A DNA stretch of 64,000 nt from Clostridia bacterium (GTDB taxonomy: Bacteria > Bacillota > Clostridia > Oscillospirales > Acutalibacteraceae): positions 38,468 to 102,467 of the forward strand of contig JAFURT010000001.1 of NCBI GenBank assembly GCA_017471765.1. The letters are read 5' to 3'. Below, piece by piece: positions 242 through 47,927 of the stretch; position 1 is the first letter of the stretch; every line of letters starts with the position of its first letter. The translations under genes were made by a program, and so were the position numbers. The notes below the pieces were generated by a model. That model saw only the letters and a program-made list of their open reading frames with translations, did no database searches and had not been told where the DNA came from.

Positions 242-250
242 AAACTGTAT

Positions 251-297
251 GCACAAAGCGTGCCTTCTGGCGAGGGCACGCTTTGTGCGCTCTTTTT
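251..297 (+). terminator. Rho-independent terminator after the YbjN-like gene
   Basis: A 14-bp perfect stem (GCACAAAGCGTGCC pairing with its complement) with a 9-base loop, followed by a T-rich tract, ends the first gene. It isolates the following operon. Confidence 0.9.
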
Positions 298-331: not shown

Positions 332-2185
332 ATGTGGATTAGGTGCTTTTTCGGGGCTCTGCTGGTGCTGGTGCTGGCTGTTTGCCTGGCGATTTTCGGC
401 AACCGGTTCAACCGGCGCTGGGAACGGGTATTCGACCCGTTGCGCACCCTGTTGCTTGGCGTGATTTTGTCGGCGGTGATTTTATTTATTCCGCTGTATA
501 CAGAGGAATTTAACGGAAGCGGTTGCGGCCCGTTGGAAACCTTCTTAATCTCCGTTCACAATACCATCCGTCTGTTTGTGGTGGACGGTGATTTCGATTT
601 TGTGGTCAAGCACCTGCGTTTTGACGAAAACGAATGGCTGTACAACGCCTATTCTATCCTGTTTTCGTTGCTGTTCGTGCTGGCACCCATGCTGACTGCC
701 GGTTTTGTGCTGACCTTTTTTAAGAATTTTTCTGCCTATTTGCAGTATTTACGCAACCTGTTTGCGGATGCGTACATCTTTTCTGAACTGAACGAGAAAT
801 CTCTTGCATTGGCTGAAAGCCTGCATGAACATACAAAAAAGAAGAAAAAAGCACCGGTGGAAGAGGCTGAGGCAGGGGACGAAAAAAAGTCCAAAAAGCG
901 GATGCTGGTGTTTACGGATGTGTTTGATAGTGGGGAAGAGCGAAGCTATGAGCTGTTAACCAAAGCGAAGGCATTGGGGGCGGTGTGCTTTAAGCGGGAC
1001 ATCACCGCACGCTTCTTCCGGCTGCACTGGAAAAACAGCAAGCTCTGTTTTTTCACCATTGGTGAGGATTTTACCGAGAACACGCGGCAGGCTTTAACGC
1101 TGTTTGCCAACTACCGGAACCGGAAAAATGCGGAGCTGTTTGTGTCCTCTACTCAGATAGAAACCGAGCTGTTGCTGGCGAATGCCTGCTTTGGCAAAAA
1201 GGACGATAAGAATCCGCCTGAGATGCTGGTGCGCCGTATCCATGAGGTGCGCTCGCTGGTTGGCCGTACGCTGTATCAGACCGGCTACCAGGCACTGTTT
1301 GCCTCGGCGGCAGAGGGTGAAGGAGGCGACAAGCGCATTACCGCTGTTGTGGTGGGTATGGGAAGCCACGGCATGGAGATGACCAAAGCTCTGGCCTGGT
1401 ATGGGCAGATGGATGGCTACAGCCTGGAAGTTCACGCTTTTGACCGCACGGCGGCCAGTGAGCGGTTCAGCCTGGCCTGCCCGGAGCTGGTGGGTCCCTT
1501 CCATTATGACCCAGAAACGACCCCCGGTACGGAGGATGCGTACAACATCACGGTGCACGATGGGCTGGATGTGGATAGCAAGGCCTTCTTTGATGCGGTG
1601 ATGGCGCTGCCGCCTGCCACCTACGTGTTTGTGTCTTTGGGCAATGATGAGCTGAATATTGCTACCGCTGTGCAGTTGCGGGAGTGGTATGAGCGTGCCG
1701 GGCACCATCCGTATATTCACGCTATCGTCTACAACACCGATAAAAAAGAGGCGCTGGAGGGGATTACCAACTACAAAGGGCAGGCGTATGATATCCACTT
1801 TATCGGGGATATGCGTACCACGTATTCCGAGGATACATTGCTGAACAACCAGTTGGAGAACAAGGCTCTTGCTCGCCACAAAAAGTGGGGCGAGGAGAGC
1901 GAATTCTGGCAGTATAACTACAATTATCAGTCTTCCATTGCTTCGGCCATCCACTACGAGGCGAAAAAGGCCTGCGGTATTCCCGGTATCGAAAAAGCAT
2001 CGACTGACCGGACACCGGAGGAGAGAGAGGCTATCCGGCGGCTGGAGCATCGCCGCTGGAACGCCTATATGCGTTCCGAGGGCTATTGCTATGGCCCGCA
2101 GCGAAACGACCTGGCCAAGCTACACCCATGTTTGGTGCCTTTCGAGGCGCTGACACCGAAGCAGCAGGCGTTGGATGATGATTAA
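332..2185 (+). CDS. Membrane protein with Rossmann/TrkA-N-like region and C-terminal RyR domain
   Basis: A protein of about 617 residues. Three hydrophobic segments lie at roughly residues 5-25, 35-58 and 108-135, followed by a Lys-rich cytoplasmic linker (about 165-190). A Rossmann-like region contains a nucleotide-binding type glycine motif (VVVGMGSHGMEM, around residue 335-345). Near the C-terminus the signature RRLEHRRWNAYMRSEGY (about 568-585) is that of the RyR domain, which in bacteria is found as a suspected ligand-binding module. The ATG at 332 is preferred over 323 because GGAGG lies 9 bases upstream of 332 and touches 323. It is followed 22 bases on by a CASTOR-like channel and then a TIR protein, all on the same strand, which suggests one operon for nucleotide-dependent membrane signalling. 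Substrate and ligand are unknown. Confidence 0.75.
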   Translation: MWIRCFFGALLVLVLAVCLAIFGNRFNRRWERVFDPLRTLLLGVILSAVILFIPLYTEEFNGSGCGPLETFLISVHNTIRLFVVDGDFDFVVKHLRFDENEWLYNAYSILFSLLFVLAPMLTAGFVLTFFKNFSAYLQYLRNLFADAYIFSELNEKSLALAESLHEHTKKKKKAPVEEAEAGDEKKSKKRMLVFTDVFDSGEERSYELLTKAKALGAVCFKRDITARFFRLHWKNSKLCFFTIGEDFTENTRQALTLFANYRNRKNAELFVSSTQIETELLLANACFGKKDDKNPPEMLVRRIHEVRSLVGRTLYQTGYQALFASAAEGEGGDKRITAVVVGMGSHGMEMTKALAWYGQMDGYSLEVHAFDRTAASERFSLACPELVGPFHYDPETTPGTEDAYNITVHDGLDVDSKAFFDAVMALPPATYVFVSLGNDELNIATAVQLREWYERAGHHPYIHAIVYNTDKKEALEGITNYKGQAYDIHFIGDMRTTYSEDTLLNNQLENKALARHKKWGEESEFWQYNYNYQSSIASAIHYEAKKACGIPGIEKASTDRTPEEREAIRRLEHRRWNAYMRSEGYCYGPQRNDLAKLHPCLVPFEALTPKQQALDDD

Positions 2186-2207
2186 TAGGAAGCAAGGATG
2201 ATTAGAA

Positions 2208-4319
2208 ATGAAAAAGATACGAGAATGGTTAAATATACAGCTTGTTAAAAATCCCGGCCAAATGGTGCTGAGCGCCATATTGTTGTTTAATATACTCTTC
2301 TTTTTGGTGTCCGCAGTCATCATCAGCAGTCTTTCTTTAGCCGGAACGGAGCATATGAGCTTTATGGAGGCTACTTTCTGTACGATTACGATGATCTTAG
2401 ATGCGGGCTGTATCCAGTTTGTCGTAGAAGATATTGGTACTGCCGGTGTTGCAACCGTCATTATATGCCTGGCTATCGTTCTGGTGGGAATGATCTCTTT
2501 CACAGGCGCTGTTATCGGTTATATCACCAATTATATTGCCAGTTTTATTGACCATGCCAATGCCGGCGCTCGGCAACTAAAGATTTATGACCATGCGGTT
2601 ATTCTTAACTGGAACAGCCGTGCTTCAGAGATTGTCAATGATCTGTTGTATGCGCCGACAAAGCAACGCGTGGTTGTGTTGGTAGGCGGTCGCCGTGATG
2701 AGATCGAAAAGGAGATCAACGAGCGTCTGGCAGATACAATTGCCCGTGAGAATAGGGAGGTGGCCAAGCAGGCAGCAGCGATTGGCGGCATACGTGGGTT
2801 GCTGTATGCGTACATGCACGCATTTCGACGGAATGTGACGGTTATTGTTCGTGAGGGAGATGTGTTCTCCTCTAAGCAGTTGCATGATATTTCATTGGAA
2901 CAGGCTCGAATGGTCATTGTCCTTGGAAACGACATTAACAATACACTCTGTAAGTTTGAACACAAAGAACTGACCGAACAAAAGATGCGCGGTAATGCAC
3001 AGACAATCAAGACACTTATGCAGGTCGCTGATATTACGGCTGCGGCATATTCCGCTGACAAGCAGAAGATCATTGTGGAAATCACCGATGATTGGACAGC
3101 TGAACTGGTGGACAAGATTATCGCCTATAAACAGGTAGAGGGGAAATGTAATATCGTTCCCGTTCGTGTCAATCAGGTGCTGGGGCATATTTTGTCTCAA
3201 TTCTCTTTGATGCCGGAGTTGAATTTGGCCTATCGCGAGTTGTTTTCTAACAAAGGTGCGGCATTCTTTGCTGAAGAACAGCCTGCTGAAGAGGAAATCA
3301 ACTATTTACGCCAGTACCTGGCCACGCATACGTGTGCTTTGCCTCTTACCTTTATGGAAAGCCATAATCAGTCCTATGCCTACTATGCTGCCGTTAGCCA
3401 GCGTGATGTCAGCCGGAAAGGGGAACCAAAGGTAGCGCCTTATTCCGTAAACCTTAATGCTGATTACTGGATCGAGAGAAAAAACATCATTCTGTTGGGG
3501 CATAACAGTCGTTGCGAAGAGATTATGAAGGGCTTTGAGGCCTTCCGCAAGGAGTGGGGCTATAAGGATCGGGATGAGGAAATTGTCCGGGTGCTGGTGA
3601 TTGATGATGAGAAGCATCTGGAGAAAATGAATTATTATCGCCAGTACCCCTTTGTTGTTGGCATACAGGCGGCACAGGTGTATGACCGTGAGGTCATTTA
3701 TAAAGCTATCCGGGAGTTCGTAGATGCCAATGAAGAGGATACCAGTGTACTGATCCTGTCGGATGACAGTGCTTTGAATGAGAATATCGACGCTGACGCC
3801 CTGGCGAATCTGATTTATGTGCAGGATATTATTCAGGCTAAAAAGGAAGAAGATCCTTCCTTTGATGAAGAAAGCATCGATGTTGTAGTGGAAATCATTA
3901 ATCCCAAGCACCACGATATTGTCAATAGTTACAGCGTAAATAATGTGGTTATCAGTAACCGGTATATCAGTAAAATGATTACCCAGATTGGCGAGAAGGA
4001 TGCTCTGTTTGATTTCTATTCGGATATTCTTACTTATGACATGGGGGATGGGGATACATACGAGAGCAAGGAAGTATATGTGAAAAAGGTCAGCCGCTTG
4101 TTCACAGACGTTCCGGCTCCCTGTACGGCAGAACAGCTGGTTCGTGCTGTGTTTGAAGCATCAGTTGATGCTTCTTTGCCTAAGGAGAGGCGCAATCCCA
4201 CCATCGTTCTGGGATATGTAAAGCCAGGCGGACACATGGTGTTATTTGGCGGTGAACAGGCGGATATTCCGGTGACGCTGGATTCCCGTGATAAACTGAT
4301 TGTATTTAGTAATCATTAA
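2208..4319 (+). CDS. CASTOR/POLLUX-like ion channel with two RCK regions
   Basis: 703 residues. Two N-terminal transmembrane helices (about 17-42 and 80-112) flank a short pore-like segment (FMEATFCTITMILDAGC). The first RCK-type domain begins with HAVILNWNSRASEIV near residue 128, the characteristic opening of CASTOR/POLLUX/DMI1 channels. A second starts with NIILLGHNSRCEEIM near 427. This two-RCK layout is that of the plant symbiosis channels and their bacterial relatives, which pass monovalent or divalent cations and are gated by ligands or ions. It lies between the RyR protein (22-base gap) and the TIR-LRR gene (22 bases from stop to chosen start). Ion selectivity cannot be read from the pore sequence. 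Confidence 0.8.
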   Translation: MKKIREWLNIQLVKNPGQMVLSAILLFNILFFLVSAVIISSLSLAGTEHMSFMEATFCTITMILDAGCIQFVVEDIGTAGVATVIICLAIVLVGMISFTGAVIGYITNYIASFIDHANAGARQLKIYDHAVILNWNSRASEIVNDLLYAPTKQRVVVLVGGRRDEIEKEINERLADTIARENREVAKQAAAIGGIRGLLYAYMHAFRRNVTVIVREGDVFSSKQLHDISLEQARMVIVLGNDINNTLCKFEHKELTEQKMRGNAQTIKTLMQVADITAAAYSADKQKIIVEITDDWTAELVDKIIAYKQVEGKCNIVPVRVNQVLGHILSQFSLMPELNLAYRELFSNKGAAFFAEEQPAEEEINYLRQYLATHTCALPLTFMESHNQSYAYYAAVSQRDVSRKGEPKVAPYSVNLNADYWIERKNIILLGHNSRCEEIMKGFEAFRKEWGYKDRDEEIVRVLVIDDEKHLEKMNYYRQYPFVVGIQAAQVYDREVIYKAIREFVDANEEDTSVLILSDDSALNENIDADALANLIYVQDIIQAKKEEDPSFDEESIDVVVEIINPKHHDIVNSYSVNNVVISNRYISKMITQIGEKDALFDFYSDILTYDMGDGDTYESKEVYVKKVSRLFTDVPAPCTAEQLVRAVFEASVDASLPKERRNPTIVLGYVKPGGHMVLFGGEQADIPVTLDSRDKLIVFSNH

Positions 4320-4341
4320 AGCGCGGAAGGTTGACGTGAAG

Positions 4342-6267
4342 ATGAAAGAGGTTTTTATCAGCTATAAAACAGAAGAGTTTGATGAGGCCAACTGGGTGCG
4401 GTCTACGCTGGAGCACAACGGTATATCCTGCTGGATGGCGCCGATGAGCATACCCGGTGGCTCCAGCTATGCGGTGGAGATTCCTCAGGCAATCAAAGGG
4501 TGCAAGGTGTTTGTGCTCATTTTGTCCGAGAAATCACAGAGCTCCAAGTGGGTTCCCCGTGAACTGGATCAGGCCATTAACGAGGGTAAGATCATCATGC
4601 CCTTTATGCTGGAAAACTGTGCTCTCAAGGACGATTTTAACTTCTATCTGACTAATGTACAGCGGTACAATGCCTACGAGAGCAAGGCAGCTACGATGGA
4701 AAAGATGATTTTGGAGATCAAGGCGGTGCTGGGGCAGAAGCCGCTTGTGTCCACCCCGGCTGAAGAAGAACCGGAAACCCCGGCGGCAGGGGAGAAGCCC
4801 AAACCGGAACCGCCTAAACCGGAGGAGCCCAAGCCGGAATCGCCCAAGCCGGAGCTTCCCGGACCGGAAGTGCCGAAACCGCCGGTGGGACCGCCAACGC
4901 CGCCGAAGGCGCAAGCACCCAAGGCGAAATCCCGTCCGGCAGCCAAGTCCTCTGCTCCCAGGCAGAAGAAAAAGCTGTTGCTGTTTGTTGCCATCGGTGT
5001 AGTGACGGCTCTGGTAGTAGGAATACTGCTGTCGGTCATTACCTCCTCGGCTAACACCATTGTGATTGCCGGTGAGACGTTCAAAAAGAGTGATTATTCG
5101 GTTGTTCTGGAGGATAAGACCCTTACGCAGAATGACATTTTGCAGTTTGAAAAGTTTGATGACCTCAATACTATTTCCTTGACCGGATGTGCACTGCAGG
5201 GAAGCCTACGCGCCATGGGACAACACAATCTGACCACTCTGGTATTGGCTCGCTGTGGGGTTACCCAGGAGCAACTGAAAACCCTGGAGCTGTCTGATGA
5301 GGTGTTTCGGCTGGATCTGTCCGGTAACCAGGAGATTACCGACCTGGCCCCGCTGAATTTGGCCAACAAGAACTACCTGTATGAGCTACATATCAGCGAC
5401 ACGGGCGTGACGGATATTACCCCGGTAGGGACATTGCCGAAATTAGAGAAGCTGTATGTTAACCGTCTGGGGTTGCTCAATCTAGAAGGGCTGGAAAACT
5501 GCATTTATCTGCAGGAACTGCACGCCGTGGGTAACGCTCTTACCACGCTTGAGGGGCTGGAGAACACCTCTAAACTGGCCCGGGTGTACCTCAACGATAA
5601 CCAACTGACGGATATTACGCCTTTGGCCAGATCGGCAGAAACACTGACGGTGTTACAGGTGAATAACAATGCTCTGGCCTCGCTAGATGTGCTGAAGGCG
5701 TGCACGGCACTCAAATACCTGTCTGCCGACAAAAACAAGCTGACCGGCATTGAGGAATTGCCTCGCAAATCGCTGTCCGGCCTGTCGGTGGCGGACAATC
5801 AGCTCACGGCTATTGAAAAACCGTGGGGCTTGGTGGGCGACAGTGTGTATATGGATGTGTCCGGCAACCGGATCACCGAAAGGGTAGTCGTTACCGGGGA
5901 TAAGGGCCGTATTCAACTGGATATGAGCGATAATCCCCTGGTGGATTATGCATATGCCACTGACCACTATTACTCGAACCTGTTTATGCATGGTCTGCCG
6001 GCAGAGGATGACCCTGCCCACCATCTTGAAATCTTGATGGAGACCATTGAGGGAAGTCGGTTGGTAATTGACTATGGTGAAGGAATGGAAAAGGCGAATC
6101 TGGCTGAAAACGACAAATTCAACGAAGTTTATGTGGTGGATTGTCCGCTGTCTGCCCAGGTAGCTATGCAGGAGCTGCTGGGCTCCTACCGGGTACAGTT
6201 TGTGTCTGCGGATGAGGCGGCTGAGCTGGCCATGTCCCTGCCCTATGAGATGCAGTATGATGAGTAA
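4342..6267 (+). CDS. Membrane TIR-domain leucine-rich-repeat protein
   Basis: About 641 residues. An N-terminal TIR domain (residues 1-120) opens with KEVFISYKTEEFDEANWV. It keeps a glutamate (E74, in WVPRELDQAI) at the position of the catalytic Glu of NAD-cleaving TIRs. A Pro/Glu/Lys-rich spacer (about 139-196) leads to a single transmembrane helix (about 211-235), then a leucine-rich-repeat region (about 255-520) with repeating LxxLxLxxN units. The topology suggests a cytoplasmic TIR and an outside LRR sensor, the reverse order of Toll-like receptors. The ATG at 4342 is chosen because homology starts there; in-frame codons back to 4300 overlap the channel gene. It is the third gene of the RyR/channel/TIR set. 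NADase activity is inferred. Confidence 0.85.
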   Translation: MKEVFISYKTEEFDEANWVRSTLEHNGISCWMAPMSIPGGSSYAVEIPQAIKGCKVFVLILSEKSQSSKWVPRELDQAINEGKIIMPFMLENCALKDDFNFYLTNVQRYNAYESKAATMEKMILEIKAVLGQKPLVSTPAEEEPETPAAGEKPKPEPPKPEEPKPESPKPELPGPEVPKPPVGPPTPPKAQAPKAKSRPAAKSSAPRQKKKLLLFVAIGVVTALVVGILLSVITSSANTIVIAGETFKKSDYSVVLEDKTLTQNDILQFEKFDDLNTISLTGCALQGSLRAMGQHNLTTLVLARCGVTQEQLKTLELSDEVFRLDLSGNQEITDLAPLNLANKNYLYELHISDTGVTDITPVGTLPKLEKLYVNRLGLLNLEGLENCIYLQELHAVGNALTTLEGLENTSKLARVYLNDNQLTDITPLARSAETLTVLQVNNNALASLDVLKACTALKYLSADKNKLTGIEELPRKSLSGLSVADNQLTAIEKPWGLVGDSVYMDVSGNRITERVVVTGDKGRIQLDMSDNPLVDYAYATDHYYSNLFMHGLPAEDDPAHHLEILMETIEGSRLVIDYGEGMEKANLAENDKFNEVYVVDCPLSAQVAMQELLGSYRVQFVSADEAAELAMSLPYEMQYDE

Positions 6268-6277
6268 GGAGTAGACT

Positions 6278-6682
6278 ATGCACCTGATCGTGTGTTTGGA
6301 TAAAAGGGACGGCATGCTGTTCAATCGCCGTCGGCAGAGCAGTGACCGCTTGCTTCGGCAACGGCTGCTGGCCATGGTAGGGGACAGGAAACTGTGGATG
6401 AACAGCTATTCCGCTCGGCAGTTTGAGGAAGGCGCATCCATTACGGTGGAAGAGGCGTTTCTGGAACTGGCGGGGGAGGAAGATGTCTGCTTCGTGGAGA
6501 ACGTGGTGGTCACCCCCTATGCAGACCGGGTGAAAAGCATCACCGTCTACCGCTGGGATAAGGTGTATCCGGCGGATACAGTGTTCCCCTGGGAGGGGTT
6601 CTCCGGCTTCCGGTTGGAACAGGCCGTTGAGTTTGCCGGATATTCCCACCCAACGATAACAGAAGAGAGGTATTGCCGATGA
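6278..6682 (+). CDS. Conserved protein of unknown function (starts MHLIVCLDKRDGM)
   Basis: 134 residues, no signal peptide or membrane segment. The N-terminus (LIVCLDKRDGMLFNRRRQS) and the WMNSYSA segment resemble a small conserved clostridial family that I know only as uncharacterised. I cannot assign a function. It starts 10 bases after the TIR-LRR stop with an AAGGAG site and overlaps the next gene by ATGA, so it is translationally coupled to the secreted nuclease and may belong more to that gene than to the TIR module. Confidence 0.7.
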   Translation: MHLIVCLDKRDGMLFNRRRQSSDRLLRQRLLAMVGDRKLWMNSYSARQFEEGASITVEEAFLELAGEEDVCFVENVVVTPYADRVKSITVYRWDKVYPADTVFPWEGFSGFRLEQAVEFAGYSHPTITEERYCR

Positions 6683-7590
6683 AGATGCGGTATAAGCTGT
6701 TGGCGCTGTTGCTGGCGATACTGCTGTTGTGTAGTGGCTGTAAGCGTGCGCCGGCGCCGCCGGAGAGCAGTGAGGCCACCTCTGTGCCTACGAGCCAGGA
6801 GGAGGCGGTGCTCACCGTTGAGACCGTGCCGGCGTATAGTGGGGCGGCCTATGTGGCGCTGAAAGGAAATCAGCCGGATTTCACCGAGGCGGATATGACC
6901 ACGGTATCGTATGAATCCTACAGCGACCTGGATGCTTTGGGACGATGCGGCGTGACCATGGCCTGCGTGGGGCAGGATATTATGCCCACGGAGGACCGGG
7001 GCAGTATCGGCCAGGTGAAGCCTACCGGCTGGCACACAGTGAAATATGACTGCGTGGACGGGAAATATCTGTATAACCGTTGCCACCTGATCGGATACCA
7101 ACTCACCGGCGAAAATGCCAATGGGCGCAACCTCATTACCGGCACCCGGTATCTTAACATTGAGGGGATGCTCCCCTTTGAGGATATGGTGGCGGACTAT
7201 GTTAAGGAGACCGGCAATCATGTACTGTACCGGGTGACGCCTGTTTTTAAGGAAAACAACCTGTTGGCCAGCGGTGTGGTGATGGAGGGCTGGTCGGTGG
7301 AGGATGCCGGCGAGGGTGTCTGCTTCCATGTATATGCTTATAATGTGCAACCGGGTGTGCAGATCGATTATGCCACCGGCGACAGTGCGTTGGGAGAGGT
7401 TCCCACCACCACGGCGGCGCCGCAGGCGGACGCCCAAACCTATATTTTGAATACCAATTCAAAGAAGTTCCACCTGCCTACCTGCGGTTTGGCCGAGGAC
7501 ATCAAGGAGAGCAACCGAAGGACGGTGACCGAAAACCGGGAGGAACTAATTGACCAGGGGTATTCTCCCTGCAAATCTTGTAACCCATAA
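6679..7590 (+). CDS. Secreted lipoprotein DNA/RNA non-specific nuclease
   Basis: About 303 residues. A lipoprotein signal (hydrophobic stretch ending LLLCSGC) is followed by a Ser/Glu-rich linker. The nuclease domain (about 45-240) has the segment YNRCHLIGYQLTGENANGRNLITG, typical of the streptodornase-like DNA/RNA non-specific endonucleases, with the catalytic His in RCHL and the metal-holding Asn downstream (RNLITG). The C-terminal 50 residues (HLPTCG…YSPCKSCNP) form the Ada-type Cys-rich metal-binding module often attached to such nucleases. Start at 6679: GAGAGG lies 8 bases upstream and the ATG overlaps the preceding stop. It could serve nutrient scavenging or attack on extracellular DNA. 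A link to the upstream TIR genes is only positional. Confidence 0.85.
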   Translation: MKMRYKLLALLLAILLLCSGCKRAPAPPESSEATSVPTSQEEAVLTVETVPAYSGAAYVALKGNQPDFTEADMTTVSYESYSDLDALGRCGVTMACVGQDIMPTEDRGSIGQVKPTGWHTVKYDCVDGKYLYNRCHLIGYQLTGENANGRNLITGTRYLNIEGMLPFEDMVADYVKETGNHVLYRVTPVFKENNLLASGVVMEGWSVEDAGEGVCFHVYAYNVQPGVQIDYATGDSALGEVPTTTAAPQADAQTYILNTNSKKFHLPTCGLAEDIKESNRRTVTENREELIDQGYSPCKSCNP

Positions 7591-45211: not shown

Positions 45212-45240
45212 TTGACAGCGTTTTTTTGCGGTGATATACT
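45212..45240 (+). promoter_or_regulatory. Strong promoter of the tandem-TIR gene
   Basis: TTGACA, 17-base spacer, TATACT, consensus-like, directly behind the preceding terminator. Confidence 0.85.
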
Positions 45241-45269
45241 CGTATAGTAGAGGAACAGCGGAGGGAACT

Positions 45270-47927
45270 ATGGCACAGCTGAAAGTTAAAACCAGAGGGG
45301 ATGGCAGTCCGCAGGGTAAGCAGAAGGTGTATTTCTGCTGCCATCCGGCGGACTTTTCTGCCTTTTTTGAGCCGCTTTCAGCGGAAATTCTGGAAAAGCA
45401 GAACTGCGCCATTTGGTACGACGATACCCTGGCACCCCGGGATGAAGAATTCCTGGCACAGTTGCAGGAAATGCAGCTGTTCGTGATGCCGGTGACCTCC
45501 CGGTTGTTGCAGACAGATAACCCGGTGATGGAGACGGAGTTCCCCTTTGCCATCACCCACCATATCCCGGTATTGCCGCTGATGCAAGAGGATGGTCTGG
45601 AGGCGGTTTTTAACGAAAAGTGCGGCGACCTGCAATTCCTCAATAAAAACGATGCCGACCCTACGGCGATTCCCTATGACGAAAAGCTGAAAAAGTACCT
45701 GTCCTCTGTGCTGGTCGGGGATGCGTTAGCCGCCAAGGTCAGGGCGGCCTTTGATGCCTATGTGTTCCTTAGCTATCGCAAAAAAGACCGGCAACACGCC
45801 AGGGAACTGATGCGGCTGATTCACAAAAACGACTTCTGCCGGGATATTGCCATATGGTACGATGAATTTCTCACCCCCGGCGAAAATTTCAACGATGCCA
45901 TCCGGGACGCTCTGGAAAAGAGTGGCCTGTTTGTGCTGGCAGTGACCCCCAATCTGGTGAACGAGGTCAATTACATCATGACCACCGAGTATCCCATGGC
46001 CGTGGAGCGGGGAAAACCGGTGGTGCCGGCCGAAATGGTGCCTACGGATAAGGTGGCGCTGGCGGATAAGTACGCCGACATCCCGCCCTGTGCCGATGCC
46101 CACGATGAGTCAGCCTTGTCCGCCGCTCTGCTGGCGGCGGTGCAGAAGCTGGCTATTGCGGAGAATGACCATTCTCCGGAGCACAATTTCTTTATCGGGC
46201 TGGCGTATCTGAACGGTATCGATGTAGAGGTGGATCACGACCGGGCGCTGGCACTCATTACCGGTGCGGCCGAGAGTGGGCTGGTAGCGGCGGTAAAAAA
46301 GCTGGTGAATATGTACCGAAGCGGCACCGGTGTGGATCGCAATTACAGGACGGCCATCCACTGGCAGGAGAAGCTGGTCGCCATTCGGGAAAAGGCGTAT
46401 GCGGCTTGCATAGAGGCCAAAAAGACGGACGTTTTGCTGTCGCTGGAGGACTTGTTCAGTGATGATGGGGATTTTTCACAAGCCCAGCTACTGCATGATC
46501 TGTTCTGGGAACTGATCGACAGCGGTAAATTTTACTGCGAACTGGGGCGGCCGGGTCTGGCCAAAAAAGTGTATCTTAAATTGTTGCAGTACCTGGAGAA
46601 TTTCGACTACGACAAAACAGGCGACAGTATGCAGTATAAGTTCTTCCTTTGCTATATGAACCTGGGAGATGCTTGCCGGGATATGGAGGATATAGCGGAT
46701 GCCGAAGCGTACTATCTGCAGGGGCAACAGATAGCCAAAACAAATGCAGAGAAGGGAAATGAACGGTTTCTGGAAAGAATGTCCCTTATCCACAATCGGC
46801 TGGGCTTGTGTTATGCCCGAAAGGGAGACTGGGAGAAGGCCCGATATTATCATGAAAAGCAACTGGAACAGGATGAAGCCCTGGCTGAGAAAACCGGTGA
46901 GCCAGCGGAACGAAGGAATTTGGCCGTTTCCTGTATCAATCTCGGCGATGTGTGCGAAGGGGAGAAGAAGCTGGAGGTTGCCTTTACCTACTATGAGCGT
47001 TCACTCCATATTCGTCTGCAACTGGCAGAAGAACTGGGAGAGGAAATTGACCTGACGAATTTAGCTGTTACTTATTCCAGACTGGGACGGAACAGTAAAA
47101 AGCGGAAGTGCTATGAGCAGGCCAAGGACTATTACCAGAAGGCTCTGGAGATTCAGGAACAGATGGCAGACAAGATCGGGACAGTACAGAGCCGCCAGCA
47201 GTTGGCGGTGGAATACAGCAATGTGGGCCAGCTGTTCCGGGACATGCAAGACTGGCCGGTGGCGCAACAGTATAAAGAACGGGCCTTGGCCATTTACCTT
47301 TGCCTGGCCGAGGAAGTAAAGACCTATGAGTTCCGTGAGGAAATGCGCGTCTGTTGCCGTTCTTTGCGTAAGCTATGTGCAAGGCAGGGGAATCTCCGTT
47401 CTTTCCGTGCAAGCTACGTGGAGGCTATCGCCGTGACCGAGAGACTGGCAGAGAAGCTGGGCACTACACAGATACGGTGGGAGTTGTCCTGTGCCTATAT
47501 TGAGATGGGTACCGCTTGCAGAGATGACAAGGATTTTGCTGAGGCTAAGGTGTGGTTTGGAAAGGCCTTGCAGGTGCGTGAACAGTTGGCGGACGAGTCA
47601 CAGAGCCTGGAGGACCAACGCTCCGTGCTAACCTGCTGGCTTTATCTTGCGCGCAACAGTGAGAAAATGGGGGATTACGCCACTGCCAAAGAACAGTATT
47701 TGCGCTATTTAGCTATCGTCCTCTCTATGCAGGATAAAGTGGATGCGGGTGCCACAGAGGAGTCTTACGACGCAAATGGCGATCTGTATGATGCCTACCG
47801 ATGGTTAGCGTCTGTTTGCGAAAAACTGGAAGAGTGGGAAGAAGCACAGCAGTATCGCCTTGAGGCAGAGAGCAGGAGACCGTTGCTAAAGGGCCTCGAG
47901 TCTCTTAATGCGTTATTTGATGATTAA
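45270..47927 (+). CDS. Tandem TIR-domain protein with Sel1/TPR repeats
   Basis: About 885 residues, no signal peptide or membrane segment. TIR 1 (about 18-140) starts QKVYFCCHPADFSAFF and keeps a Glu (E90, METEFPFA). TIR 2 (about 158-290) starts AYVFLSYRKKDRQHARELM and keeps E240 in MTTEYPMAVERGKPV. Both lie at the position of the NADase Glu. Sel1-like repeats (about 300-360, GLAYLNGIDVEVDHDRAL, YRSGTGVDRNYRTAIHW) are followed by a long TPR array (about 430-870; MNLGDACRDMEDIADAEAYY, AVSCINLGDVCEGEKKLEVA). TIR-TPR architecture is typical of bacterial signalling or antiphage proteins. It is a single-gene unit with its own promoter. Confidence 0.87.
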   Translation: MAQLKVKTRGDGSPQGKQKVYFCCHPADFSAFFEPLSAEILEKQNCAIWYDDTLAPRDEEFLAQLQEMQLFVMPVTSRLLQTDNPVMETEFPFAITHHIPVLPLMQEDGLEAVFNEKCGDLQFLNKNDADPTAIPYDEKLKKYLSSVLVGDALAAKVRAAFDAYVFLSYRKKDRQHARELMRLIHKNDFCRDIAIWYDEFLTPGENFNDAIRDALEKSGLFVLAVTPNLVNEVNYIMTTEYPMAVERGKPVVPAEMVPTDKVALADKYADIPPCADAHDESALSAALLAAVQKLAIAENDHSPEHNFFIGLAYLNGIDVEVDHDRALALITGAAESGLVAAVKKLVNMYRSGTGVDRNYRTAIHWQEKLVAIREKAYAACIEAKKTDVLLSLEDLFSDDGDFSQAQLLHDLFWELIDSGKFYCELGRPGLAKKVYLKLLQYLENFDYDKTGDSMQYKFFLCYMNLGDACRDMEDIADAEAYYLQGQQIAKTNAEKGNERFLERMSLIHNRLGLCYARKGDWEKARYYHEKQLEQDEALAEKTGEPAERRNLAVSCINLGDVCEGEKKLEVAFTYYERSLHIRLQLAEELGEEIDLTNLAVTYSRLGRNSKKRKCYEQAKDYYQKALEIQEQMADKIGTVQSRQQLAVEYSNVGQLFRDMQDWPVAQQYKERALAIYLCLAEEVKTYEFREEMRVCCRSLRKLCARQGNLRSFRASYVEAIAVTERLAEKLGTTQIRWELSCAYIEMGTACRDDKDFAEAKVWFGKALQVREQLADESQSLEDQRSVLTCWLYLARNSEKMGDYATAKEQYLRYLAIVLSMQDKVDAGATEESYDANGDLYDAYRWLASVCEKLEEWEEAQQYRLEAESRRPLLKGLESLNALFDD

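Follow-up and report, generated by a model that had tools for sequence, protein, structure and literature searches.

The window that we analysed is a stretch of 64,000 nucleotides from a gut Clostridia bacterium (Acutalibacteraceae; assembly GCA_017471765.1, contig JAFURT010000001.1). It starts 38,468 bases into the contig, and the source genome is 1.92 Mb long and 79% complete. Near the beginning of the window three genes encode a membrane protein with RCK domains and a ryanodine receptor (RyR) domain (protein 1), a relative of the plant CASTOR/DMI1 channels (protein 2) and a receptor-like protein with a TIR domain, a transmembrane (TM) segment and leucine-rich repeats (LRRs; protein 3). The plus-strand open reading frames (ORFs) at 323-2185, 2208-4319 and 4300-6267 are all intact and co-directional. 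The likely starts, judged from relatives, are the ATG codons at 332, 2208 and 4342, which leaves two intergenic gaps of 22 bases, and a hairpin with a T run (250-289) parts the operon from an upstream YbjN-like gene that ends at 241. This layout agrees with the original prediction, made from the letters of this DNA, which had proposed three consecutive, operon-like genes. The features of the operon are as follows.

250..289, + strand: intrinsic-terminator-like hairpin with an 18-pair stem (10 G-C) and a 4-base loop, then CTCTTTTT
332..2185, + strand: gene 1, membrane protein of the RyR-RCK channel type (reading frame open from ATG 323, probable start ATG 332)
440..754, + strand: pore-like unit of protein 1 in the AlphaFold2 (AF2) model, with TM 39-63, a re-entrant-type helix 69-85, a VVDGD loop 86-90 and an inner helix 104-144
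764..1852, + strand: tandem RCK gating-ring region of protein 1 (residues ~148-510)
2045..2182, + strand: C-terminal RyR (repeat12) domain of protein 1 (PF02026), with H576, W579, H601 and D618
2208..4319, + strand: gene 2, predicted CASTOR/DMI1-type channel with two RCK domains (profile of relatives; filter-like LDAGC)
4342..6267, + strand: gene 3, TIR-TM-LRR protein (reading frame open from TTG 4300, probable start ATG 4342)
4342..4716, + strand: TIR domain of protein 3 (TIR_2, 3.9e-20), with E74 at 4561-4563 and PDB matches to Cat1, AbTIR and SARM1
4975..5043, + strand: single strongly hydrophobic segment in protein 3 (residues ~212-234), preceded by a lysine/arginine-rich stretch
5131..5892, + strand: LRR region of protein 3 (residues ~264-517; LRR_4, 5.4e-20; internalin-type matches)

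The three proteins

Protein 1 had been described as a membrane protein with Rossmann and RyR domains. All three elements were found, and the AF2 model, which is confident (mean pLDDT 89.3, pTM 0.83), extended the description: two RCK units follow a pore-type TM unit, as in RCK-gated channels. Protein 1 thus itself looks like an RCK channel-type protein, with predicted ion conduction. The model places an additional TM segment at residues 2-26 ahead of the pore-like unit, in which residues are counted from ATG 323; in this numbering the relatives begin at the equivalent of residue 4. Among 35 aligned proteins the pore region is well kept (F85 in 35/35, D88 in 27/35, D or E at position 90 in 28/35), and G345, G350 and D374 of the second Rossmann unit are each present in 35/35. 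The nearest structures to the modelled gating ring are DMI1/CASTOR, TrkA, KtrA and GsuK.

When protein 1 was searched by itself, its match to the Pfam RyR family PF02026 (E 4.3e-6, 27.3 bits) fell 0.1 bits short of the cut-off of 27.4, whereas in the genome search the domain scored 29.6 bits, exceeding that cut-off. Profile matches in the PDB included the bacterial structures 4n05/3nrt, animal RyR, 6uag (1.1e-9) and chain 35tm (9.1e-5 and 3.3e-5 in two profile searches). We took 35tm to be RyDEP because its code occurs in PMC13232231, a 2026 preprint of which we draw on excerpts. According to these excerpts, RyDEP is a mycobacteriophage RyR-domain protein that cleaves 2'/3' cyclic ADP-ribose (2'/3'cADPR); its H75, W78, H100 and D117 contact ADP-ribose (ADPR) in the crystal, with H75/D117 as the catalytic pair. 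The same excerpts report that 6 of 8 phage RyR homologues tested bound 2'/3'cADPR, and that one of the nine RyR proteins described hydrolysed signals while the eight further homologues did not cleave. In protein 1, W579, H601 and D618 lie at +3, +25 and +42 from H576, which is exactly the spacing in RyDEP. All four residues are conserved in 35/35 aligned proteins, and three phage RyR proteins carry them in register with the window protein. Judged by this alignment, every cADPR-contact residue reported for phage RyDEP has its counterpart in the RyR domain of protein 1, which turns the idea of a RyR protein that reads a TIR product into a specific, testable claim. Matches to the domain at E<=0.1 occur in 194 phage records. 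A whole RyR channel is also encoded in a record from human faeces labelled 'UNVERIFIED: Bacteriophage sp.' (L160 4162-6252, MT835673.1), whose phage origin is doubtful.

Protein 2 matched no Pfam family over the cut-off (best Slo-like_RCK, 0.036). A profile of eight of its relatives, in contrast, matched plant CASTOR (6o6j, 1.2e-6) and DMI1 (7vm8, 4.2e-6), the CASTOR match consisting of four weak segments that run in order across both RCK domains. One relative (in genome G252) also matched Castor_Poll_mid at 0.002, below the cut-off. The filter-like loop LDAGC contains D65 (2400-2402), and D65-A66-G67 is invariant (8/8); the corresponding CASTOR filter reads AD265S(A)GNHA, and D265 is described as essential in the parts of PMC6697748 that we used. 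By these profiles protein 2 is a CASTOR/DMI1 homologue with tandem RCK domains, as originally proposed, and its channel activity and Ca2+ selectivity are predicted. Matches to it among plasmids were not found. A common origin of proteins 1 and 2 was considered and dropped, as the hhalign comparison of their profiles was not significant (probability 0.1%).

Protein 3 is, as anticipated, a transmembrane TIR-LRR protein, with an N-terminal TIR domain, a lysine/arginine-rich linker, a single TM segment and then the LRRs. The closest solved relatives of its TIR domain are the NADases Cat1, AbTIR and SARM1. E74 aligns with the glutamate of the SARM1 WVHKE motif, which we take to be the catalytic residue, and a glutamate occupies this position in 17/17 RyR-linked TIRs. 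Within the compared set, an equivalent TM segment is present in 9/9 LRR_4-type TIR proteins versus 0/4 of the LRR_5 type. The single TM segment and the lysine/arginine residues that precede it predict that the LRRs should lie outside the cell and the TIR domain in the cytosol, an orientation also expected because TIR requires cytosolic NAD+. In its predicted topology protein 3 is an inverted Toll-like layout.

Recurrence of the gene links and other neighbours

We surveyed 81 RyR-channel loci, namely the window and the best 80 of 210 relatives found in genome contigs, almost all of them metagenome-assembled genomes of gut Clostridia; the gene maps of the compared loci are mechanical ORF picks. 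A TIR gene lies within three genes of the RyR-channel gene in 18/81 loci (two of them, L118 and L133, on weaker matches), and a CASTOR-like gene in 6/81. The complete trio within three genes was found in the window and in L082, which has the same order; in L081 it falls within four genes, dispersed over five. Identity to the window proteins in L082 and L081 is 46-47% for protein 1, 66% for protein 2 and 35-40% for protein 3. The prediction that the three genes would be neighbours in related genomes therefore stood for the RyR-TIR pair, while the complete trio is rare (2/81). The CASTOR-like channel is an occasional partner, more weakly attached than had been proposed, and the trio as a conserved unit was dropped.

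Of the 292 genes that stand no more than two places from the RyR gene, 17 were TIR genes, as opposed to 7 of the 658 beyond, and with the window excluded the counts were 16/289 and 7/643 (p 1.3e-4). The TIR profile was seeded from RyR neighbours and may overlook distant TIRs in other places. Free of that bias, the tallies by Pfam placed TIR_2 in 9/62 next-downstream co-directional genes, compared to 2/46 upstream genes and at most 1/62 distant control genes, where it was absent from the 25 commonest families. Within the bacterial family, 11 genomes have a strong RyR match (E < 1e-80, out of 32 with any RyR match) and hold 59 TIR matches in total. In 6 of these 11 a TIR lies less than 10 kb from the RyR gene (5/10 without the window's genome; binomial ~5e-5), while ~5% would be expected from the genome-wide TIR density. 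Five of the 80 relatives (L074, L079, L089, L122 and L141) seem to repeat family-genome contigs, so that the two surveys are not independent.

Grouping at 60% identity reduced the 81 loci to 43 groups, 16 of which contain a TIR-linked locus when L118 and L133 are included. A quick tree requires at least 11 changes of the TIR label (16 loci) and at least 6 of the channel label (6 loci), indicating that the links recur; gains and losses are indistinguishable in these counts. The TIR label was applied without L118 and L133, which have TIR matches that are weaker or lie far from where the domain begins, and retained L086, which has a short, internally deleted TIR. The sensor parts of the TIR partners vary (TM-LRR_4 in 9 loci, LRR_5 in 4, a weak STAND-like match in L087, Sel1 repeats in L123) next to a constant RyR channel, as expected if the channel is a common receiver.

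Several other genes stand near the RyR channels. A gene for a PrsW-type intramembrane protease, which might release the TIR, lies between the RyR-channel gene and the TM-TIR-LRR gene in L074, L084 and L141. Soluble TIR-LRR_5 genes share a one-base overlap with a CitMHS-type transporter gene in L072, L073, L077 and L081, and CitMHS transporters are found near the RyR channel in 7 loci; YbjN-like proteins are also frequent. In genome G138 (L063, L167) a TIR gene (279 aa) precedes the RyR gene by ~16 kb in the same orientation, with genes of that strand in between, and on the same contig another, more distant RyR protein (L045) likewise has a nearby TIR gene. A Card1-like nuclease (PF09002), a family that has CARF-type sensors, precedes the RyR gene by one or two genes in 7/81 loci (L079, L083, L090, L096, L119, L127, L140), hinting at a second nucleotide signal. 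A fusion of Cdc48-type AAA domains to an FtsH-type M41 peptidase follows the RyR channel in 9 loci (L096, L098, L099, L101, L109, L121, L133, L091, L083), in 8 as the next gene, and some of these loci continue with another RyR-type protein and a RyR-only protein of 96 residues. Giant transglutaminase-type, ~736-residue two-TM and tubulin-like proteins recur in L074, L078, L080, L081, L084, L095 and others, and kinase and PP2C genes come after the RyR-channel pair in L053. We make no 'defence island' claim, as generic AAA matches dominated the PADLOC tally of the genes downstream, for which there was no PADLOC control.

On the far side of the terminator the operon is preceded by the YbjN-like gene and, upstream of the window, by a gene for a SpoVK-like AAA+ ATPase (L052 16092-18149); in L054 the RyR channel has relatives of both next to it, and several more loci have one of the two. 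In the window itself, another TIR protein, of 898 aa and with TPR repeats (TIR_2 4e-11), is encoded at 45231-47927, 39 kb downstream. Two further genes follow gene 3 and are possibly co-transcribed with it.

6278..6682, + strand: small protein, 10 bases downstream of gene 3
6679..7590, + strand: DNA/RNA non-specific endonuclease with a lipoprotein-like start (Endonuclea_NS_2, 2.1e-21)

The short gap between gene 3 and the small protein contains no terminator-like site, and the small protein matched no Pfam family. The pair also adjoins the channel gene in G252. We set both genes (6278-7590) aside as parts of the pathway because the small protein is too widespread, being common by itself (38/250 family genomes).

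A candidate signalling pathway and its rivals

Domains, topology, residue conservation and the recurrence of the gene links were computed; every activity, ligand, ion, gating direction and benefit to the cell is what we infer from them. We propose that a stimulus at or outside the envelope would cluster protein 3 through its outward LRRs, and that its cytosolic TIR would then convert NAD+ to a nucleotide of the cyclic ADP-ribose type. The RyR domain of protein 1 would bind this nucleotide via H576, W579, H601 and D618, and binding would shift the tandem-RCK gating ring and switch the pore of the probably tetrameric protein 1. Protein 2, as an optional partner, could add to or amplify the ion flux, e.g. 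by the Ca2+-induced opening proposed for CASTOR, and the flux would be the output, as an alarm, growth arrest or death. The original prediction had a TIR product either gate a channel or be read by the RyR protein. The gene link and the cADPR-contact set favour a product that the RyR protein reads, while the separate gate gives way: as protein 1 itself looks like an RCK channel, reader and gate are probably one molecule.

How far we would go along this pathway differs from step to step. For the core, in which protein 1 reads a putative TIR-made nucleotide with its RyR domain and is gated by it, we see the chances as evenly balanced. Protein 2 could take a direct part in this pathway, though we would sooner expect it to have none. 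The whole Toll-like pathway, with an outward LRR, cyclic ADP-ribose made by the TIR, an RyR-gated RCK channel, a CASTOR-type Ca2+ amplifier and a host sensor that RyDEP-type phage proteins would resemble, is unlikely to be right in every part.

A number of observations weigh against the proposed pathway. The pore loop of protein 1 differs from the TVGYG filter, so that its permeability is a guess; the AF2 model of protein 2 (6 sequences) was poor (pLDDT 48.4) and was not used; and the profiles of proteins 1 and 2 do not match significantly. A D618-type dyad could signify hydrolysis rather than sensing. No TIR lies within three genes in 63/81 RyR-channel loci, some of whose contigs end early, and other partners are equally frequent (AAA+FtsH-type protease in 9 loci, transglutaminase-type giant protein in 15, Card1-like nuclease in 7). 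In the reverse test, 4/7 TIR-LRR relatives covering both parts lie beside a RyR channel; the 14-20 kb around those in G213, G024 and G209 hold no RyR channel, and a partial eighth, in G096, was left out. The TIR-LRR sample comprised the 6 of 19 family matches over 200 bits. The protein 2-type channel gene adjoins the RyR gene in 2 of the 9 family genomes having it (E < 1e-90; 11 have any channel match), and the channel occurs in 0/9 other same-genus genomes sampled. The TIR-poor loci, the alternative partners, the reverse test and the absence within the genus make this an accessory module whose components are exchanged.

The same patchy distribution, with many alternative neighbours, repeated gain or loss on the tree and the reverse test of 4/7, would be expected if the three proteins shared no pathway and were separate membrane-stress or defence genes collecting in variable Clostridia loci. 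To this explanation we give a low probability, since TIRs are concentrated beside the RyR gene relative both to distant genes of the same contigs and to the genome-wide density, and the 22-base gaps and the same gene order in L082 also speak against it. A pathway could also exist in which the RyR domain is an off-switch that hydrolyses the TIR product like RyDEP, while the pore of protein 1 answers something else. The RyDEP catalytic pair H75/D117 indeed corresponds to H576/D618, kept in 35/35 proteins; however, a single one of the nine RyR proteins in the excerpts of PMC13232231 hydrolysed signals and six of the eight others bound them, and a domain fused to a gating ring would be expected to bind a ligand that regulates. 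We therefore consider an off-switch improbable.

It is quite improbable that protein 1 senses a fall in NAD+ (or a rise in ADPR or AMP) through its second Rossmann unit, the RyR domain merely assembling the channel. The nucleotide-fold residues G345, G350 and D374 are invariant, and the nearest folds include GsuK (NAD, ADP), TrkA (ATP-gamma-S) and KefC (nucleotide), but an RCK fold is by itself no proof of NAD binding, and conservation is no less strict at the contact residues of the RyR domain. Finally, the TIR of protein 3 might be an enzymatically inactive scaffold that touches the channels and is coupled to them in this way. In favour are the membrane location of all three proteins and the fact that not all bacterial TIRs are active alone. 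Against this, E74 is conserved throughout the RyR-linked TIRs and the closest solved relatives are NADases, so that we hold a scaffold to be very improbable.

Relation to known systems

The proposed pathway most resembles Thoeris, an anti-phage system in which the TIR protein ThsB makes 2'/3'cADPR and an effector reads it. In both, a TIR gene stands beside a gene for a putative sensor of the cADPR type, and one receiver is combined with varied TIR partners; protein 3 has the TIR_2 match and the conserved E74 of such a TIR and weakly matches PADLOC ThsB-type models via its TIR. No ThsA-type or other listed effector lies beside the TIR, and neither protein 1 nor protein 2 matched a PADLOC family at E<=1. 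The receiver here differs in being an RCK channel-type protein with a RyR domain, the TIR sits on a TM-LRR receptor, and the system is known from sequence alone. The signalling scheme would thus be like that of Thoeris, but with a TIR that resembles a receptor and a receiver of a new kind.

Other likenesses concern single parts. The RyDEP- and sponge-type phage proteins, as far as the excerpts of PMC13232231 describe them, have the RyR repeat12 domain with the same four contact residues and spacing, but they are soluble and serve counter-defence, whereas here the domain is fused to a host-side channel. The animal ryanodine receptors also carry this domain on a large cation channel; pore, size and scaffold differ, and the small domain is the only common part. 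With the plant nuclear Ca2+ channels CASTOR/POLLUX/DMI1 (PMC6697748, in part), protein 2 shares homology and a D-A-G in the filter and protein 1 the fold of the gating ring. However, the proteins here are bacterial, the N-terminal TM part of protein 2 is shorter, and CASTOR lacks the RyR end of protein 1. GsuK and TrkA/KtrA have a tandem or paired RCK ring below the pore and respond to nucleotides (structures with NAD, ADP and ATP-gamma-S), but are without a RyR domain and have a different K+ filter. Toll-like receptors likewise have LRRs on one side, a single TM helix and a cytosolic TIR; from the N terminus their order is LRR, TM, TIR, whereas that of protein 3 is TIR, TM, LRR, with internalin-like LRRs. 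This is a likeness of layout and does not imply descent.

In the open-licence PMC literature we found neither a description of a RyR-RCK channel in bacteria nor one of a link between such a channel and TIR genes, which leaves absence unproved, as subscription papers were outside this scope. If the proposed pathway is true, ligand-gated RCK channels would join the receivers of TIR-made nucleotides, and a cellular protein would be at hand with which to answer, using purified parts, the old question whether RyR repeat12 senses cADPR. Protein 3 would be a bacterial receptor with the layout of a Toll-like receptor, so that the eukaryotic themes of cADPR-to-RyR and Toll-to-TIR signalling would be united in one operon. 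Such channels would also be a possible source from which phages took their RyR-domain sponges and glycosidases.

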